From positions 21,108-85,107 of the forward strand of contig NZ_BJXA01000036.1 of the NCBI RefSeq assembly GCF_007990755.1: a stretch of DNA of 64,000 nt. Reading direction: 5' to 3'. Under the pieces are notes generated by a model. It did no database searches and had not been told where the DNA came from. It was given only the letters and a program-made list of their open reading frames with translations. The stretch comes from Nocardia ninae NBRC 108245 (GTDB lineage Bacteria; Actinomycetota; Actinomycetes; Mycobacteriales; Mycobacteriaceae). A program made the translations under genes and the position numbers. Of the stretch, positions 49,402-57,245 are shown one piece after another. Within the stretch, counting starts at the first letter, position 1, and the number at the start of each line of letters is the position of its first letter.

Positions 49402-49422
49402 CTTTTGAGACAAAACTACATT
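49402..49422 (+). promoter_or_regulatory. padC promoter with CTTTTG-N3-CAAAA operator
   Basis: CTTTTG-AGA-CAAAAC (49402-49416) is followed without a gap by TACATT (49417-49422), a probable -10. The same arrangement occurs at the carboxylesterase promoter (55580-55600). A second symmetrical element, ACATT-N5-AATGT, covers 49418-49432. Confidence 0.65.
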
Positions 49423-49456
49423 GTGGTAATGTCACAGCTCTACCGAGGAGGCAGCG

Positions 49457-49975
49457 ATGGAGACTTCCACAAAGCAAGACACCACGCGGGACCTATCTCA
49501 GATCGTCGGCAAGCACCTCATCTACACCTACGAGAACGGCTGGCAGTACGAGCTCTACGTCCGCAACTCCACCACGATCGACTACCGGATCCATGCCGGC
49601 ATGGTCGGCGGCCGCTGGGTCAAAGGGCAGTTCGTCGACCTCACGCGACTCGACGCGGACAACTACAAACTCTCCTGGACCGAGCCGACCGGCACCTCGG
49701 TCAGCGTGAACATCATGCCCGGCCTGCGCCGGCTCCACGGCGTGATCTTTTTCCCGCAGTGGATCAAGCAACACCCGGAACACACAGTCTGCTTCCAGAA
49801 CGAGCATTTGGCCGAAATGGCCGAGTACCGCGACCAGGGCCCCACCTACCCGATCTACGTGATCGCGGAGTCCGCCCAGATCACCTTCCTCGAAGACCGC
49901 GGCGTCGACGACGACACCGTCATCGCCTGCGCCCCCGCGGACCTGCCCGCCGACTACGTGACCCGCACCAATTGA
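49457..49975 (+). CDS. padC: Phenolic acid decarboxylase
   Basis: The 172-residue protein decarboxylates hydroxycinnamic acids (ferulic, p-coumaric, caffeic) to vinyl phenols. The sequence [20 protein letters not shown] is the family hallmark. The catalytic residues known from the Bacillus enzyme (Tyr11, Tyr13, Arg41, Glu64) correspond to Y23, Y25, R53 and E76, all at a constant offset of 12. The ATG follows GAGGAGGCAGC. The promoter carries a CTTTTG-N3-CAAAA inverted repeat shared with the secreted carboxylesterase gene 6 kb downstream, so both are probably controlled by one regulator. The divergent neighbours are an SDR and a crotonase. Confidence 0.93.
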
Positions 49976-50235
49976 TCATGCCGTCCAGCGGGAATCGGTG
50001 GCGTCGCACGACAGCGGGACGGTGGTCGCCCGGTATACGCGGCCGAGAGATTCGCCTACCCTGACCCGGCCGCCGATATCGAATCGCGGATGCTCGAGAC
50101 CGGATGAGTTTGAACGCCGGTGGGGGGCGGTTTCGTCGTGCTACCGTGATCGGCAGCGCGACCTTCTGCGGTCAGCGGAAGTCCAATTCGTCGGTCCTGC
50201 AACGTATATGGCGGCCGACGGTGTGGGGAAGGGGA

Positions 50236-51306
50236 ATGCTTATGCCTTTGCCGACCGAACCGATTGGGAGTATCCCGCGGCCAACGGCGCTATTGACGGG
50301 AATGCAGGACCATGCCGCTGGTCGGACTACCGACGCGGCCCTCGCCGATCTCTATGACGCGGCGGTGCAGGACACCATCGCGCGTCTGGAATCGCTTGGG
50401 TCGCCGGTAGTTACGGACGGCGAGCAGAGTAAGCCCAGTTTTGTGAGTTATCCACTGGCCGGATTGACGAACCTCAGTCCCGATGGTGCGGTGATTCCCT
50501 TCGCGGACGGTCACACGCGGCAGTTGCCGGCGTTGAGCGCAGGGCCGTTTCGATATGCGACGTTCAGTGCGCAGTATCTGCAGGCCGCTCGGAAGTATGC
50601 GACGGCGCCGGTCAAGCAAGCCGTGATCGCGGCTTCCGCGATGAGCCTGTTGTATCCCGCGAACGGCATCAGCGGGTACTCGCGAGAACAGTTCCTCGAC
50701 GATCTCGTCGACAATGTAGAAGCCGACATTCGCGGGGCGTTCGATTGTGGTGCGCACTCGGTCCAACTCGACTTCACCGAGGGGCGACTGTCGCTCAAGC
50801 TCGATCCTTCCGGTGGGTTGCTCGACTCGTTCGTCGCGTTGAACAATCGGGTGCTCGATCGATTCACACCGGAGCAGCGGCAGCGGATCGGCGTACACAC
50901 TTGCCCTGGCGGGGACCAAGATTCGACCCACAGCCTCGACGTGGACTACGCGGAGTTGTTGCCGAAACTGTTCGGCATTCATGCCGGGCAGTTCTACGTC
51001 CAGCTTGCCAGCGAGCCCGATCCCGATCGAGTCCTACAGGTCATCGCCGAGCACTTGCCGGCGGACGCCCGGATTTTCGTCGGTGTCATCGACCCGATCG
51101 ATCCGGCCGTCGAAACGGCGGAGCAGGTGCGGGACCGGGTGCTCAACGCCGCTCGGCACCTGCCCGTGGACCGACTCGGCACGTGCGACGACTGCGGATT
51201 CGCACCATTCGGCGACGATGTCTCTACGTCGCGAGAAACCGCGTTCGCGAAAGTTCGTGCCCGCATCGAAGGCACCGCGGCGGCGTCCGAAGAACTCGGC
51301 GTGTGA
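50236..51306 (+). CDS. MetE C-terminal-like methyltransferase
   Basis: The ATG at 50236, after AAGGGGA, gives 356 residues: MLMPLPTEPIGSIPRP, then a TIM barrel of the cobalamin-independent methionine synthase catalytic half. The zinc-ligand residues seem kept: HTC in GVHTCPGGDQDS, a Glu in VQLASEP and a final Cys in GTCDDCGFAPFGDD. MetE itself is about 750 residues with a duplicated N-terminal half; this is a core-only version. It may transfer a methyl group from a donor other than folate. Its terminator is the hairpin at 51320-51351. Confidence 0.8.
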   Translation: MLMPLPTEPIGSIPRPTALLTGMQDHAAGRTTDAALADLYDAAVQDTIARLESLGSPVVTDGEQSKPSFVSYPLAGLTNLSPDGAVIPFADGHTRQLPALSAGPFRYATFSAQYLQAARKYATAPVKQAVIAASAMSLLYPANGISGYSREQFLDDLVDNVEADIRGAFDCGAHSVQLDFTEGRLSLKLDPSGGLLDSFVALNNRVLDRFTPEQRQRIGVHTCPGGDQDSTHSLDVDYAELLPKLFGIHAGQFYVQLASEPDPDRVLQVIAEHLPADARIFVGVIDPIDPAVETAEQVRDRVLNAARHLPVDRLGTCDDCGFAPFGDDVSTSRETAFAKVRARIEGTAAASEELGV

Positions 51307-51319
51307 GCTGACAGAGCAG

Positions 51320-51351
51320 GGGGCCGGCCGACTCATCATCGGATCGGCCCC
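51320..51351 (+). terminator. Hairpin after the MetE-like gene
   Basis: GGGGCCG (51320-51326) pairs with CGGCCCC (51345-51351), 13 bases after the stop. It may also end the convergent oxygenase transcript. Confidence 0.5.
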
Positions 51352-51353
51352 TA

Positions 51354-51464
51354 CTACTGCCCACGCTGCCCTTCATGACGTGCGATGAACTCCGCGACCA
51401 AGTCGCAGACCCGGTCGGGCTCGGTGAAGCAGACGAAGTGGCCGGAGTTCAGCACTCTGTCACC
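51354..51464 (-). pseudogene. C-terminal remnant of an alpha/beta-hydrolase
   Basis: A minus frame of about 37 codons reads GDRVLNSGHFVCFTEPDRV followed by CDLVAEFIARHEG and a stop at 51354. This is the typical last segment of an alpha/beta hydrolase (catalytic His in SGHFVCFTEP). It directly abuts the stop of the oxygenase gene in another frame, so a deletion has fused the oxygenase end to this scar. Confidence 0.55.
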
Positions 51465-52446
51465 GGGTGATCACATAGCCGTCGTGTGCGCGGTGGTCGC
51501 GGGAGCGGCGGAGGTCGGCGATGGCGAAGGTGCGTTGTACCCAACGGTCGGCACCGTCGTAGCGGGGGCGAAAGGCGGTGCGGCCGTGGACCGTAACGCG
51601 GTTGTCCACGATGACCAGGTCGCCGGGGGTGAGTCTGGTGGTGCGGGCGGCGGTGTTGCAGGCGTGGCCGAAGGCAGTGAGCGCGGTGACGGCCCGTGGT
51701 GTCAATGCGGTGGTCGCGATGGTGGCCATTCGGATATCGGGGTCTTCCGGGGCGCCGGACAGTAAGGGCTGGGGTGCGACGATCGTGTTGTCCACGCCGA
51801 AGGACGGCGGCGGTGCGGTGCGAAATTCCGGAGTGAACAGTACCTTTCGGCTCACTGCGGAGAGCAGTGGTAGCACTTCACGGAGGCACGCCGTGCGCAG
51901 GCCCGCGACCCCGTCGTGGTCGGCGCGCAGACACAGCAACAGCACGTAGTCGGGTTCGTGTCGGTGGAAGGCGTTTTCGTTGTGAAAGGTGAGCAGCACC
52001 GAACCCGCGTTGCCCGAGAAGGTTTCCTTGCCGGGCACCGGCACGACGTCCTGCACCAGGGCCCCGGATTTCTCGGCCAGGTACGCGACCGGGTCGCCCA
52101 GCCCGCAGGCGATCATGGTGAGTACCGCTGCGGCGACGGTAGCTTCGCGCTGTACCGAATCCGGTACGGACGGCGTCGCGGGCAATCCGGCGGCATCGAC
52201 GGGTAAGCCACGGATCACCAGCGCTCCACGCGGGCCGGAGTGTCGCCGGAATTGCCGCACGCTGCGGCGCAGGGACAGCGGCAGTTCGTCCCACGCATCC
52301 CGAGCGCGCGCCACCCATTCGTCGGCGTCCACCCGATCGTGGGTACCGCCGCACAGCGCGCGGGCGACCTTATCGGTCTCGGTGGTATCGCCGGGATGCA
52401 AGGTCAGGTCAGGGGTTTCGTCGGTGGGGTCGGCGATCTCGTGCAT
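51460..52446 (-). CDS. TauD/TfdA-like Fe(II)/2-oxoglutarate oxygenase
   Basis: The ATG at 52446, preceded by GGAGGG, gives 328 residues. The iron-binding H-x-E appears in TFHNENAFHRHEPD, the distal His in VDNRVTVHGRTAF and the 2-oxoglutarate-binding Arg in WVQRTF. The layout recalls clavaminate-synthase-like amino-acid oxygenases (AsnO/VioC), which hydroxylate free or bound amino acids, but the substrate is not deducible. It lies 23 bases after the 369-residue gene in the same operon, and an AraC regulator is divergent upstream. Confidence 0.82.
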   Translation of the reverse strand: MHEIADPTDETPDLTLHPGDTTETDKVARALCGGTHDRVDADEWVARARDAWDELPLSLRRSVRQFRRHSGPRGALVIRGLPVDAAGLPATPSVPDSVQREATVAAAVLTMIACGLGDPVAYLAEKSGALVQDVVPVPGKETFSGNAGSVLLTFHNENAFHRHEPDYVLLLCLRADHDGVAGLRTACLREVLPLLSAVSRKVLFTPEFRTAPPPSFGVDNTIVAPQPLLSGAPEDPDIRMATIATTALTPRAVTALTAFGHACNTAARTTRLTPGDLVIVDNRVTVHGRTAFRPRYDGADRWVQRTFAIADLRRSRDHRAHDGYVITR

Positions 52447-52469
52447 CAAGGCCCTCCTGCCCGGTGCGC

Positions 52470-53579
52470 CTAGCGCCGCAAAGCGGCCACGGCGTCAGCG
52501 ATGTAGTGGTCGCCGAACTGGATCAGCGGCGCGTACTGGGCGGCCCGCCGGTGCCGCATCAGGCGCAATTCGCCGACGGCATTGTCCGGACCGGTGGGCA
52601 ACTGCGCGATGGAGCGGCGCAACCGCACCATCGAATAGGCAAGGGTGACATGGCGTTCGCTGTCCACGAGGTCGGCTTCGAGCAGCGCACTGCGCGCGGC
52701 GGCGAGGTCGGGGTCGCGGGCGACCAGGTGGCCATAGGTATCCGGGACAGCCCTGAGCAGGTCCTTCATCGCGCCGCGAAATGTCTTGTAGCCGCGATGT
52801 TGTCGCCCGCTCAACGGGATCGCTACGTCGGGTGGTTGCATGGTGGGCCGCACGGTCTCCATGTAGTAGTCCACCGGAATCGTGCTGGCGTGCGTCATCG
52901 CCGCGGGGAAACCACGGACGAATGTGGTGGCGTGCGCGAGCCGCGCCAACGCGGCCTCGGCCGCTCCGTCACGCAGATGATGCACCGCGTCCGACACCGC
53001 GACCGCCGCACAGATGTTGAACAGAACGTGCACCTGATGCCCGACGAGCCACCGGGCCGTCCATTCGCTTTCCAGCGATACCTCTTCGGGCACAACAACA
53101 TTGGGCGACCCGTCGCAGGCCACGTCACCCGCCGTGCTGCCGGTGAGGTCGAGTACGGCCTGACGCATCGCCGCGACTTCTACCGCCAGGTCGGCGCCGG
53201 ACAGCGGCGCGCGACATAGGTCGAGCACACCGCGATAGACCACGAGCACCCCGTGCAGGGCCGTCTGCTGGTCGGACAGGTCCACCTCGCGAACCCGAAA
53301 GAACGACTGGCTCCCCGACTCCGCGGGGAGATCCTCCCCTGCGATCGCTGCACGTTCCGTCGACAGTGCGCCTACCAACCCACCGGCAGCAGTAACGACT
53401 CGCTGCAATGCCGAAGTGCGTTCGATCGGCCCGGCATGCGTCGGCACCTCGGCCAGCGCCAGCGCAGTCCGCCGCGCTTTCCCTCGGACATGATCGTTGA
53501 GCTGCGGGATCTTTCTGCCGTCACGCAATCCCCGGAAAACAGCCACTGGCGGGTAGGGGGCCGTAGCCGAGGTGCCCAT
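52470..53579 (-). CDS. Uncharacterised protein paired with the 2-oxoglutarate oxygenase
   Basis: From the ATG at 53579 the product is 369 residues; the longer upstream frame is Arg-rich shadow. It is mostly alpha-helical, without signal peptide or membrane segment. Notable pieces are VDYYMETVRPTMQPP, IPLSGRQHRGYKTFRGAMKDLL and DSERHVTLAYSMVRLRR. The helical layout and the His/Arg-rich segments remind me of the PrnB/indoleamine-dioxygenase-like heme proteins, but that is a weak impression, not an assignment. Its tight linkage to an amino-acid-type oxygenase suggests that both act on the same small molecule. Confidence 0.55.
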   Translation of the reverse strand: MGTSATAPYPPVAVFRGLRDGRKIPQLNDHVRGKARRTALALAEVPTHAGPIERTSALQRVVTAAGGLVGALSTERAAIAGEDLPAESGSQSFFRVREVDLSDQQTALHGVLVVYRGVLDLCRAPLSGADLAVEVAAMRQAVLDLTGSTAGDVACDGSPNVVVPEEVSLESEWTARWLVGHQVHVLFNICAAVAVSDAVHHLRDGAAEAALARLAHATTFVRGFPAAMTHASTIPVDYYMETVRPTMQPPDVAIPLSGRQHRGYKTFRGAMKDLLRAVPDTYGHLVARDPDLAAARSALLEADLVDSERHVTLAYSMVRLRRSIAQLPTGPDNAVGELRLMRHRRAAQYAPLIQFGDHYIADAVAALRR

Positions 53580-54006
53580 GCCAACCAGGGTATCCCGGCC
53601 GACGCCGGCCCCGACGGATTTCCCGTTGCACCCACCGGTCGAACTTCGTTGTGCGATCAGAGATCTCGCCCTACAGCAGATCCTCCGCATGCGCGAGTCA
53701 GCGTTCCGGCGTGCCCGGCTGGCGCGAGTTGCCGGCCACGCTGCCGCGTATAGCGCCCTGACGCAACAGTCCGATCGACGGCACGATCTCTGGATTACGG
53801 TGGGCTGACCTCGCTCACGAGCCGGGCCCAGCTCGGGAGCGTTTGCCGCGGCGTTGAAGCAAGCACTCGATGGCTCGTTGCGCGAAGTCAACTCACCTGA
53901 TTCGTACCGTACCGCCGGGGATGGCGGGACAATCGGCTCAGCGTGCACGTTGGTTCGGCTGACGATGCACCGCAGGTCGATTCAGTGGTGATGAAGGAGG
54001 ATCGAC
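53580..54006. other. 427-base divergent intergenic region
   Basis: It separates the oxygenase operon (minus) from the AraC gene (plus). A plus frame ending about 53808 has some coding character (LALQQILRMRESAFRRARLA) and may be a remnant, but no start or family is clear. No strong hairpin is seen. Confidence 0.45.
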
Positions 54007-55005
54007 ATGGTGGTCGTGCTGGACACCGATGCGCTCGCTCCCTCGGATCGGGTGGAGGCGGTAGTCGCGACTGTGCAGGATGCCTCGGCGCCGACACACG
54101 TGGTACTGAAGCCGTCGGACCGCCCGGTCCATGCGCACCTCGATGCTTGGCAGTTCGGTCAGGTCAGCCTTGTTCAGGCGCAGATGCCGGACCTCGAGCT
54201 GGTCCGGACACCGAAACAGGTTCGGGTGACACCGAGTTCGCTCGTCGCCGTCGAGGTGCAGCGGCGGGCCTGTTCCCGACTGACCCAAGGCGACGTGCAA
54301 CACGAACTCACGCCGGGCGACCTGTTCTTCATGGATTTCGACCTCCCGTACGAACTCGACTGGCACGGTGGCGGAACCACGGCACTGTTCCTGCCGGAAG
54401 ATCAGCTGGGGATACCCAAGGCGTTGATCCGCAGCGTCCTGGGCACGGTGCGGCACAGCGCGCTCGCTTCGCTGGTCACGAAACAGATTGCGCTGATGGG
54501 GGAATCGGCCGAAGCATTGCATGCGGATCCGGCCGCACCCGAGCTGGGTGCCGCGTGTATCGAGATGGTGCGCGCCTTGTTCAGCTCGGCGGCCGGCGGC
54601 AGCGAAGACAGCACGGCATTACCCGAAGATGTTCTGGTGCAACAGGTTCGCGACTATGTGCGCCGGCACCTGCTCGATCCGGACCTCTGCCCGGCCGGTA
54701 TCGCTCGCGCCCACCACATCTCGGTGCGCTACCTGTACAAGCTCTGCGAGCGCGCCGGACTCAGCCTCGAACAGTGGATCATCACCGAACGTCTCGAGCG
54801 TGCGCGAAATATTCTGGCGCGCCCCGACGCGAGGCAACGCTCCATTGCGGCCGTCGCGCACCGCCACGGCTTCCGAGATCAGACCCACTTCGCCCGCCGC
54901 TTCCGCGCCGCCTACGGTATGGCGCCGAGTGAGTGGCGGCGGGCGAACAGTTCCCCCGCAGATGCGCCGCTTACGACGATCCGAACCGCTCGGCCGAACC
55001 GCTAG
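54007..55005 (+). CDS. AraC-family regulator
   Basis: The 332-residue protein starts after AAGGAGGATCG. The N-terminal 170 residues resemble the AraC-binding-like/cupin domain (TPGDLFFMDFDLPYEL). The C-terminal 110 residues hold two HTH motifs (ICPAGIARAHHISVRYLYKL-like first helix-turn-helix; RSIAAVAHRHGFRDQTHFARRFRAAYGMAPSEWR second, the AraC signature). It is divergent from the oxygenase operon, its most likely target, with a 427-base gap. Confidence 0.87.
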   Translation: MVVVLDTDALAPSDRVEAVVATVQDASAPTHVVLKPSDRPVHAHLDAWQFGQVSLVQAQMPDLELVRTPKQVRVTPSSLVAVEVQRRACSRLTQGDVQHELTPGDLFFMDFDLPYELDWHGGGTTALFLPEDQLGIPKALIRSVLGTVRHSALASLVTKQIALMGESAEALHADPAAPELGAACIEMVRALFSSAAGGSEDSTALPEDVLVQQVRDYVRRHLLDPDLCPAGIARAHHISVRYLYKLCERAGLSLEQWIITERLERARNILARPDARQRSIAAVAHRHGFRDQTHFARRFRAAYGMAPSEWRRANSSPADAPLTTIRTARPNR

Positions 55006-55055
55006 TGTCGCCGCAGTTCGCGGACCACTGCGCCCGCACCAGGCAGAATGGCCGG

Positions 55056-55526
55056 GTGGATGTCCCTGCTGCTCGAACCGAACCGACGCCGGCCATCTCG
55101 GTCGAGGCGCAGCTCAGCGCCTTACTGGGCCCGCTGCGGCGGGCCGTGCTGCGCCGCACCAGAGCCGCGGAGGGGCTGCCGGATCTGCCGGAGGCGCAGA
55201 TCGAACTGCTGCGCCTCCTGGTCGGCGCCGAGGGGGTGCCGCCGAGCCTCGCGGCTACCGAACTCAAGGTGGCGCAGTCGACGATCAGCAATCTGATCCG
55301 GACGATGACCGCGGCGGGATTGGTCGAGCGGGTGCCGTCACCGACGGATGGACGGGCGGCGGTGCTGGTGGCCTCGCCGACGGCACGGGAACTGCTGGCC
55401 AGATACGACCGCGCGAGCGCCGCCATGCTGCGTGAATCCCTCGCGAAGCTACCCGCCGCCGATCGGGAACGACTGGAATCCGCGCTCCCCGCGCTACAGC
55501 AGTTGCTTTCTGTATTGAGCGAATGA
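55056..55526 (+). CDS. MarR-family regulator
   Basis: The GTG at 55056 gives 156 residues. The winged helix is evident: PPSLAATELKVAQSTISNLIRTMTAAGLVERVPSPTDGRAA, followed by a long C-terminal helix. It lies 90 bases upstream of the secreted carboxylesterase and directly precedes that gene's promoter, which carries a CTTTTG-N3-CAAAAG operator between -35 and -10. The same operator sits at padC. By analogy with hydroxycinnamate-responsive MarR regulators (HcaR/FerC/FerR types) it may sense a hydroxycinnamate or its ester; that is an inference from context. Confidence 0.83.
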   Translation: MDVPAARTEPTPAISVEAQLSALLGPLRRAVLRRTRAAEGLPDLPEAQIELLRLLVGAEGVPPSLAATELKVAQSTISNLIRTMTAAGLVERVPSPTDGRAAVLVASPTARELLARYDRASAAMLRESLAKLPAADRERLESALPALQQLLSVLSE

Positions 55527-55571
55527 CCTTGCCGGAACCTCGATAGTGGTTCCCTCGGCGCCCCCAGTGCC

Positions 55572-55600
55572 TTACAGTGCTTTTGTTTCAAAAGTATAAT
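55572..55600 (+). promoter_or_regulatory. Carboxylesterase promoter with MarR-type operator
   Basis: TTACAG (55572-55577), 17 bases, then a perfect TATAAT (55595-55600). The spacer holds the palindrome CTTTTGTTTCAAAAG (55580-55594), which ends directly against the -10. A repressor bound here would block RNA polymerase. Confidence 0.8.
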
Positions 55601-55616: not shown

Positions 55617-57245
55617 ATGCGGGCACGCACCGCCATATTCCGGCTCGACATGACCCGATGGTCGTCCTTGGCCGCGGTCATGATCAGCCTCGCCGTCGCA
55701 GCGTCCGCGGTCGCACATCCTCGCGCCGATGCGGCCCCGACCACGCCCGACACGGCGGTGACCGTCACCGGCGGCCCGATCCAGGGCAGGCACACCGACG
55801 GCATCGTGCACTACCTCGGCGTGCCGTTCGCGGCCCCGGCCACCGGCGAGCACCGCTTCGCACCGCCGCAGCCTGCCGTTCCGTGGACGCAGGTGCGTCC
55901 GGCGATCGCGCACGGCCCGCAATGCCCCCAGTCCTCCCCGCTACCGATCGACGTCGCGTTGCAGGAGTCGAGCGAGGATTGCCTGAGCATCGATATCTAC
56001 GTGCCCCAGCATGCCGCGACTACCGCGCTGCCCGTCATGGTGTGGTTTTACGGTGGCGCTTTCGTGCTCGGCTCCAACGCCCAATACGACTCCCCGGCCA
56101 GGCTGGTGCGGGAAGGCAAAGTCATCGTGGCCATCCCCAATTACCGCGTGGGACCCTTCGGTTTCCTCGCGCTTCCCGAACTGGCCGACAGCAACGGCGG
56201 CATCGCAGGCACCTACGGCACCCTCGACCAGCAGGCCGCGCTGCGCTGGACCCGCGACAACGCCGCCGTGTTCGGCGGGGATCCGGGCAACGTCACCATC
56301 TTCGGGGAATCCGCGGGCGGCATGAGCGTGTGCACCCAGCTCGCTTCCCCACTGGCACGTGGACTTTTCGACAAGGCCATCATCGAAAGCGGTTCGTGCG
56401 CACGAAGTCCGCTCCAGCCGCCGAGCAAGGACCTCGCCTATCAACGCTCCGCCGACTATGCCGCCGGTCTAGGGTGCACCGACCCGCTCACCCGGCAGCA
56501 CTGCCTGCGCACACTGCCCGCCGACGCTCTACTCGACTCCCCCACAACGGCATTGACGTCGATGGCGGTGGGATGGAGTCCGGTTCTCGACGGAGTCGTG
56601 GTGACCACCGAACCCGAACAAGCCCTGGCCGCCGGAGCAGCACACGACACGCCCTTGATCGTCGGCAGCAACGCCGACGAAGGCGCCACCTTCCTCGCAC
56701 TGCTCGACTACGCGCGCGGAACCACCCCTACCGCAGCCGAATATCAGAACTGGGCACGACAACTGTTCGGCGACAACAGCACTCAGGTCCTGGACCGATA
56801 CCCGCCGTCCCGCTTCCCGACCCCCGCCGCCGCCAAGGAACGGGTGATCACGGATGGGTTCTTCGCCTGCCCAGCACTGTTCACCACCGAAGCCGCCCGT
56901 CGAGGCGGTGCCCAGGTGTGGCAGTACCGGTTCAACGACGCACCACTCGGCCGGAATCCATTGCTACCGGGCGCCTTCCACGGCGCGGAGGTGCCCTACG
57001 TCTTCTCCGGGCTGATGGGCGTGCACATCCCCCTGCCGCCGCCCGCCGACCGACTCTCCCAGCGAATCCAGCAGAGCTGGGCGCAATTCGCGCACACCGG
57101 CGACCCGGTAACACCGGACTTCACCCCGTGGCCGACTACGGCGGGCAGCACCCTCGAACTCAGCAGTGACCACATCGCGGTAGCCGACTCGTTCGCCCAC
57201 CAGCATCACTGCGACCTGTGGTCAGGTATCCGCCACATCGGTTAG
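55617..57245 (+). CDS. Secreted type B carboxylesterase
   Basis: The ATG at 55617, five bases after GGGAG, gives 542 residues. A signal peptide (about 1-40, cleavage near PRADAAP) precedes a full carboxylesterase/para-nitrobenzyl esterase domain. It has EDCLSIDIYVP, the oxyanion loop VMVWFYGGAFVLGS, nucleophile FGESAGGMS, acid in GSNADEGATFL and His in PGAFHGAEVPYVF. It would hydrolyse carboxylic esters outside the cell. Shared promoter architecture with padC suggests hydroxycinnamate esters as substrate, releasing acids that padC then decarboxylates; the class as such does not prove feruloyl specificity. Confidence 0.87.
   Translation: MRARTAIFRLDMTRWSSLAAVMISLAVAASAVAHPRADAAPTTPDTAVTVTGGPIQGRHTDGIVHYLGVPFAAPATGEHRFAPPQPAVPWTQVRPAIAHGPQCPQSSPLPIDVALQESSEDCLSIDIYVPQHAATTALPVMVWFYGGAFVLGSNAQYDSPARLVREGKVIVAIPNYRVGPFGFLALPELADSNGGIAGTYGTLDQQAALRWTRDNAAVFGGDPGNVTIFGESAGGMSVCTQLASPLARGLFDKAIIESGSCARSPLQPPSKDLAYQRSADYAAGLGCTDPLTRQHCLRTLPADALLDSPTTALTSMAVGWSPVLDGVVVTTEPEQALAAGAAHDTPLIVGSNADEGATFLALLDYARGTTPTAAEYQNWARQLFGDNSTQVLDRYPPSRFPTPAAAKERVITDGFFACPALFTTEAARRGGAQVWQYRFNDAPLGRNPLLPGAFHGAEVPYVFSGLMGVHIPLPPPADRLSQRIQQSWAQFAHTGDPVTPDFTPWPTTAGSTLELSSDHIAVADSFAHQHHCDLWSGIRHIG

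Follow-up and report, generated by a model that had tools for sequence, protein, structure and literature searches.

A shared palindromic operator probably places a phenolic acid decarboxylase gene and a carboxylesterase gene of Nocardia ninae under one MarR-family regulator

Phenolic acid decarboxylases (PadC) act on hydroxycinnamic acids and work without coenzyme A (CoA), and in Butyrivibrio fibrisolvens a cinnamoyl ester hydrolase is regulated by the MarR-type protein CinR, for which we know of no decarboxylase target. The described regulator of padC is PadR, whose repression is relieved by phenolic acids (PMC10295242, PMC10443031). The MarR regulators tabulated for hydroxycinnamate metabolism answer mostly to CoA thioesters (PMC10458429), as does CouR of Rhodococcus jostii RHA1 (PMC4737184). 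Here, we analysed a stretch of 64,000 nucleotides from Nocardia ninae NBRC 108245 (contig NZ_BJXA01000036.1, positions 21,108 to 85,107), called the window below, in which padC and a carboxylesterase gene preceded by a marR gene carry the same palindrome at their promoters. The best explanation, which we consider likely, is that this MarR is a dedicated repressor acting through one operator on padC and the esterase gene and responding to a phenolic acid. It is highly likely from the sequence comparison that the two genes form one MarR regulon, and the chances are somewhat better than even that the esterase is coupled to padC through hydroxycinnamate esters.

The PadR-padC systems of Bacillus subtilis and Lactobacillus plantarum resemble this locus in having the repressor gene beside padC, divergently oriented in L. 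plantarum as in most of the genera considered here, but PadR belongs to another family and recognizes the dyad ATGT-N8-ACAT, and the accessible text of these papers names no esterase as a co-target (PMC10295242, PMC10443031). The decarboxylase target itself is common to both systems (PF05870), whereas the regulator linked to it here is a MarR according to Pfam and has no PadR match at an E value of 0.001. CouR, HcaR, FerC and FerR are, as here, MarR regulators of hydroxycinnamate genes, and the CouR box overlaps a promoter like the present site; however, their targets as described in the accessible text belong to CoA-dependent pathways and the CouR box reads cATTGA-N5-TCAATg (PMC4737184, PMC10458429). 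The solved CouR structure (6c28) scored 25.6 bits with the MarR profile, and the exact operator cores of the N. ninae genome lie at padC, the esterase gene and one alpha-amylase gene only, with no CoA-dependent hydroxycinnamate gene among them. EstR of Agrobacterium tumefaciens is also a MarR repressor with an esterase target (estC) and a site over the -10, but it senses peroxide through a cysteine and binds the box GTTATCGCGATAAC, and the accessible part of its description mentions no decarboxylase (PMC5201249). Finally, AesR of Corynebacterium glutamicum is an actinobacterial MarR with a palindrome of the 6-N3-6 type (ACTATG-N3-CATAGT), from which the present system differs, as far as the accessible text goes, by its half-site and its targets (PMC13413800). 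A literature search by title and start of abstract, mostly among papers free of subscription, returned no MarR regulator of padC and no esterase-padC regulon; by this comparison, a MarR regulon of padC and an esterase gene would differ from the published PadR and CoA-sensing MarR systems.

In the window, padC (49457-49975, + strand) encodes a phenolic acid decarboxylase of 172 amino acids (aa) (PF05870, E 9.1e-78), aligning over nearly its full length with 15 distinct solved sequences, each carrying the name phenolic, ferulic or p-coumaric acid decarboxylase. The proposed repressor of both promoters, linked to the operator as detailed below, is a MarR-family regulator of about 156 aa (55056-55526, + strand) with a winged-helix MarR domain (PF12802, E 9.1e-12; PF01047), and it is followed by a carboxylesterase of 542 aa (55617-57245, + strand; PF00135, E 1.1e-108), so that the identities given to the three proteins in the original prediction agree with their Pfam matches. 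The two palindromes also lie where that prediction had put them, each directly against a hexamer. The padC site, CTTTTGAGACAAAAC, occupies 49402-49416, with the -10-like TACATT immediately 3' (49417-49422), and the esterase site, CTTTTGTTTCAAAAG, occupies 55580-55594, with a perfect TATAAT immediately 3' on the + strand (55595-55600). Split into their halves, the predicted operators read CTTTTG-AGA-CAAAAC and CTTTTG-TTT-CAAAAG, respectively, both with an exact core (TTTTGNNNCAAAA).

This exact core occurs at only three places in the 9,698,742 bases of the genome and the backward pattern, used as a control, at none. Two of these places, separated by 6.2 kb, correspond to the promoters of padC and the esterase gene. 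The third (C4:115426; loci L001 and L075), about 20 bp 5' of the alpha-amylase gene, was set aside as a regulon site because its outer letters are G/A where the palindrome needs C/G; the regulon in this genome probably consists of just the padC and esterase promoters. Looser searches were far less discriminating. With the 19-mer TNCTTTTGNNNCAAAAGNA and at most three mismatches, 55 sites were found in the genome versus 121 for the backward control, hence no genome-wide excess of weak sites, although the esterase site alone had no mismatch and the padC site had one, tied with C69:10612. Likewise, five rows with at most two mismatches were found in the window versus 2.99 expected, a number reached by 20 of 100 shuffles, which is no signal. 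Since such loose counts are near or below chance, we relied on exact cores and on orthologs. The window count alone would agree with two matches arisen by chance, yet three exact cores in 9.7 Mb versus none in the control, together with conservation across genera, make coincidence practically negligible, and the comparison refutes it.

Conservation was followed in 118 Nocardia genomes drawn evenly from a larger group (G numbers designate genomes and L numbers loci). Fifteen of them contain the perfect 15-mer CTTTTGNNNCAAAAG, with 17 occurrences in all, versus 6 occurrences spread over 6 genomes for the backward control. Of these 17 occurrences, 16 fall within a marR/esterase or padC/marR/esterase locus. 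A scatter over many unrelated promoters, the outcome that the original prediction had named as speaking against a common operator, thus appeared neither among the relatives nor among the three exact cores of this genome. Orthologs of the MarR were present in 24 genomes (at least 185 bits; next score 158) and those of the esterase in 23 (at least 834 bits; next score 691), side by side in 22 genomes, and an exact core stands upstream of all 23 esterase orthologs. The position of padC is more variable. The order padC-site-marR-site-esterase is found in four genomes (G080, G007, G117 and G070); in G101 and N. elegans, the esterase gene and padC are divergent with one site each and marR comes after padC; in G051, which has no esterase ortholog, the MarR gene and padC are divergent and flank a site with one mismatch. 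From the end of padC to marR there are about 5 kb in the window and about 11 kb of other genes in N. suismassiliense, the nearest named locus (MarR and esterase both 95% identical), where the padC site has both arms as in the window, with a GCA spacer instead of AGA and a TACCTT hexamer instead of TACATT. The operator is thus present at padC although the gene lies some 5 kb from marR here and adjacent to it in other genomes; the simplest history would be that padC once stood beside marR and that the genes were separated while the padC operator was kept. That an operator is found at a target gene which, depending on the genome, adjoins the regulator gene or lies kilobases from it is of interest in its own right.

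Outside Nocardia, the linkage of padC to the regulator is constant. Scanning named genomes with the MarR alignment yielded 35 loci, of which 20 belong to Nocardia and 15 to Saccharopolyspora, Streptomyces, Curtobacterium, Cryobacterium and Williamsia; padC adjoins marR in all of these 15. Between the two genes, 10 of the 15 have an exact core, 4 (among them Curtobacterium) a core with one mismatch and one (Cryobacterium) none. Both Williamsia loci are arranged padC-site-marR-site-esterase, so that the constant partner of the MarR outside Nocardia is padC and the esterase is common to the Nocardia and Williamsia loci examined. In five of these 15 loci (L173, L174, L178, L183 and L187), the region between padC and marR holds two cores at a distance of 16 bp, which suggests two dimers side by side. 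As a separate observation, a DUF3237 gene lies directly 3' of padC in Williamsia (L188:4938-5402) and Streptomyces (L182:4740-5213). According to the original prediction, one repressor could serve both promoters; this regulatory half is strongly supported, as the palindrome tracks this MarR gene in Nocardia, Williamsia, Saccharopolyspora, Streptomyces and, with one mismatch, Curtobacterium. Taken together, the comparison points to one operator, one MarR clade and two targets.

The association of the site with the regulator was controlled gene by gene. For padC, 48 distinct padC-like matches of at least 100 residues were retained (shorter ones were dropped) and a site was counted when it lay upstream with at most one mismatch. 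The site was present in 27 of the 31 padC linked to this MarR group, 21 times exactly, and in none of the 17 unlinked ones. The four linked padC lacking it come from Cryobacterium (one), G360 (one) and G021 (two short relatives). In G360, a core with one mismatch does stand by marR; the padC count missed it because the padC match there is partial. At the level of the phylum, padC is rare (7 of the 396 genomes sampled, including this one), and at the six other loci a stretch of 3.4 kb contained no gene for this MarR and no core, even with one mismatch allowed. N. suismassiliense offers an internal control, as its padC linked to this MarR has the site and a second padC, accompanied by a different, divergent MarR, has none. 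This second arrangement, which lacks TTTTGNNNCAAAA, was seen at L032 and L051:8091-9162 (N. suismassiliense and G079) and suggests more than one origin for the control of padC by MarR-type regulators. Concerning the esterase, no site with fewer than three mismatches was found in the 4.6-kb loci of seven Nocardia paralogs out of the 21 matched.

For the regulator, 58 loci distinct by protein were compared. All 37 loci with at least 55% identity had a core with at most one mismatch (32 exact and 5 with one mismatch). At 45-55% identity (11 loci), seven exact cores and one with one mismatch were found within 400 bp and three loci had none; at 40-45% (10 loci), three had a one-mismatch core within 400 bp and the other seven had a core 1.26-1.31 kb away, four exact and three with one mismatch. 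A random 280-bp stretch of the fetched loci contained an exact core in 1.8% of draws, real sites included. More than 400 bp away from the three genes, 545,968 positions yielded five exact cores versus none for the backward control, and eight versus six when one mismatch was allowed. All five come from loci encoding MarR proteins of the same group with 42-48% identity, and four of them stand 5' of a gene for a 412-418-aa protein followed by the MarR gene. The former is a flavin-dependent monooxygenase by Pfam in both cases tested (L145 and L150), and in three of the four loci a gene for a 561-aa protein comes next, an S15-type hydrolase in the one tested (L150). Such monooxygenase-type gene/MarR pairs (42-45% identical MarR), headed by a core such as AGTTTTGCAACAAAACT, were seen in several Nocardia at L145:6793-8524, L150:5099-8500, L151, L154 and L155, in all but L145 with the gene for the 561-aa protein after them, and may represent another type of regulon under this MarR group.

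These controls bear on a competing reading in which a different regulator with its gene elsewhere, such as an HxlR- or TetR-type protein, uses the palindrome and the MarR is a bystander. MarR binding is predicted from comparison, and two genomes (G078 and G100) have sites without this MarR; yet the core stays by the MarR clade when its neighbours change, be they padC, the esterase gene, both or neither (G024 and G090), and the copies of padC and the esterase gene compared that are unlinked to this MarR have no core, which leaves the bystander reading very improbable. In G024, the MarR gene and its core stand beside a gene for a 269-aa protein without a Pfam family. An HxlR-type site, considered from the half-site TACTTTTG, was dropped, as the core tracks the MarR clade.

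Several observations nevertheless weigh against a dedicated repressor acting on both genes through this operator. The esterase ortholog of G078 has its core (L146:5803) and no MarR ortholog at the score used; a search for a MarR remnant beside it by tblastn gave only a weak 40-residue match about 3 kb away. In G100, a perfect CTTTTGTTCCAAAAG lies between short-chain dehydrogenase and MFS transporter genes (L063:7070), where the vicinity contains neither padC nor the esterase gene nor a MarR of this group. Conversely, padC or a padC-like gene stands beside members of the MarR group without a core in Cryobacterium (L186) and in Nocardia G021. The marR gene of the window has no exact core upstream, unlike the divergent arrangements, and the -10-like hexamer of padC matches TATAAT at four of six positions and is not kept exactly in N. 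suismassiliense. Finally, for 16 of the 23 esterase orthologs the surrounding 14-15 kb contain no padC; among these 16 genomes, G026 and G072 carry padC elsewhere, unlinked and lacking the site. Hence, the esterase can work without padC and the argument on its substrate is weakened.

The architecture of the promoters was compared in 26 padC and 26 esterase promoters. The arms of the palindrome are nearly invariant while the spacers vary, with 12 kinds at padC and 9 at the esterase gene, and six of the 26 padC sites have one mismatch; because sites were preselected at no more than one mismatch, the controls above outweigh these base frequencies as evidence. In the 26 distinct esterase promoters, the site is followed by a -10-like TA-A-T, preferred at this place across the set, and a TACAGT-like block stops two bases short of the TTTTG core; the base frequencies make this block (55573-55578, + strand, 16 bp before the -10) a candidate -35. 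At both promoters, the palindrome linked to this MarR clade spans 15 to 19 bp, which fits the MarR inverted repeat of about 16-20 bp.

From this layout and from sequence comparison, we infer a working scheme in terms of MarR binding, repression rather than activation, effector and esterase substrate. The MarR encoded at 55056-55526 would be the dedicated repressor, binding as a dimer to the palindrome (T)ACTTTTG-N3-CAAAAGTA. Because this sequence falls within the core promoter and directly adjoins the -10, the bound protein would exclude RNA polymerase at padC and at the esterase gene. Binding of a phenolic acid (free p-coumarate, ferulate or caffeate being the best candidates) or of a closely related compound to the MarR would open both promoters; the secreted esterase would then release more phenolic acid from plant esters, and cytoplasmic PadC would decarboxylate what enters the cell. 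The MarR could instead activate, as some MarR proteins do according to the accessible text of PMC10458429, or need as a partner the AraC-family protein encoded just 5' of marR (54007-55005, + strand; FeaR-like, 120.8 bits for a cut-off of 199). This alternative is improbable, since the site abuts the -10, where binding would block the polymerase, and since, among the Nocardia marR-esterase regions compared, an AraC ortholog stands beside marR only in N. suismassiliense; we do not judge the AraC-family gene to be a member of the regulon.

Among possible effectors of the proposed repressor, a phenolic acid in its free form is the best candidate, given that PadC works without CoA. The AlphaFold2 model of the MarR (mean pLDDT 90.7) gave the standard MarR fold in a structure search, in which no single ligand-bound relative stood out. 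The esterase, for its part, has a COesterase domain and S232 (in GESAGG), E355 and H455 invariant in a 15-row alignment, as in type-B carboxylesterases, and we take these residues to be the Ser-Glu-His triad from what is generally known of that family. Its N-terminus, basic then hydrophobic, reads by eye as a Sec signal, and the enzyme is probably secreted. Among solved proteins, those most closely related to it are p-nitrobenzyl esterases, a fumonisin B1 esterase and other carboxylesterases, which does not single out a substrate. Together with the 16 esterase orthologs without a linked padC and the distant MarR relatives with the same core in flavin-monooxygenase operons, these relatives would also suit the same regulon with a signal other than a hydroxycinnamic acid, in which the esterase would act on other esters (e.g., aryl or lipid esters) and padC would belong to a broader phenolic or ester response. 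We regard this as a serious possibility, short of being the probable one: outside Nocardia, the constant partner of the MarR is padC, at 15 of 15 named loci, and the known substrates of PadC are hydroxycinnamic acids.

On a broader scale, we give an even chance to the view that a MarR subfamily, distinct from PadR, is dedicated to padC in several actinobacterial genera, where it would sense the free acid without CoA, and that in Nocardia and Williamsia it also took on a secreted ester hydrolase, resulting in a feed-forward circuit whose product would induce its own release and removal. A tree of 21 esterases (11 of the 23 orthologs, one from N. rosealba, two from Williamsia and 7 of the 21 paralog matches) arranged the regulated, Williamsia and paralog sequences so that each set falls on one side of a branch; as its root was not placed, it is equally compatible with one or two recruitments of the esterase. 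A defined operator with a regulon of two or three genes would help to predict which esterases serve plant-phenolic metabolism in many Nocardia and other actinobacteria. Besides, the proposed hydroxycinnamate MarR, sensing the free acid, could be a useful biosensor part distinct from PadR and from the CoA-sensing MarRs.

Between padC and marR, the window also encodes, on the - strand (51460-53576), a TauD-family protein and a 368-aa protein without a Pfam match. The former resembles guanitoxin GntD, clavaminate synthase and VioC hydroxylases, under the NCBIfam cut-offs, and the pair is about 94% identical in N. suismassiliense.

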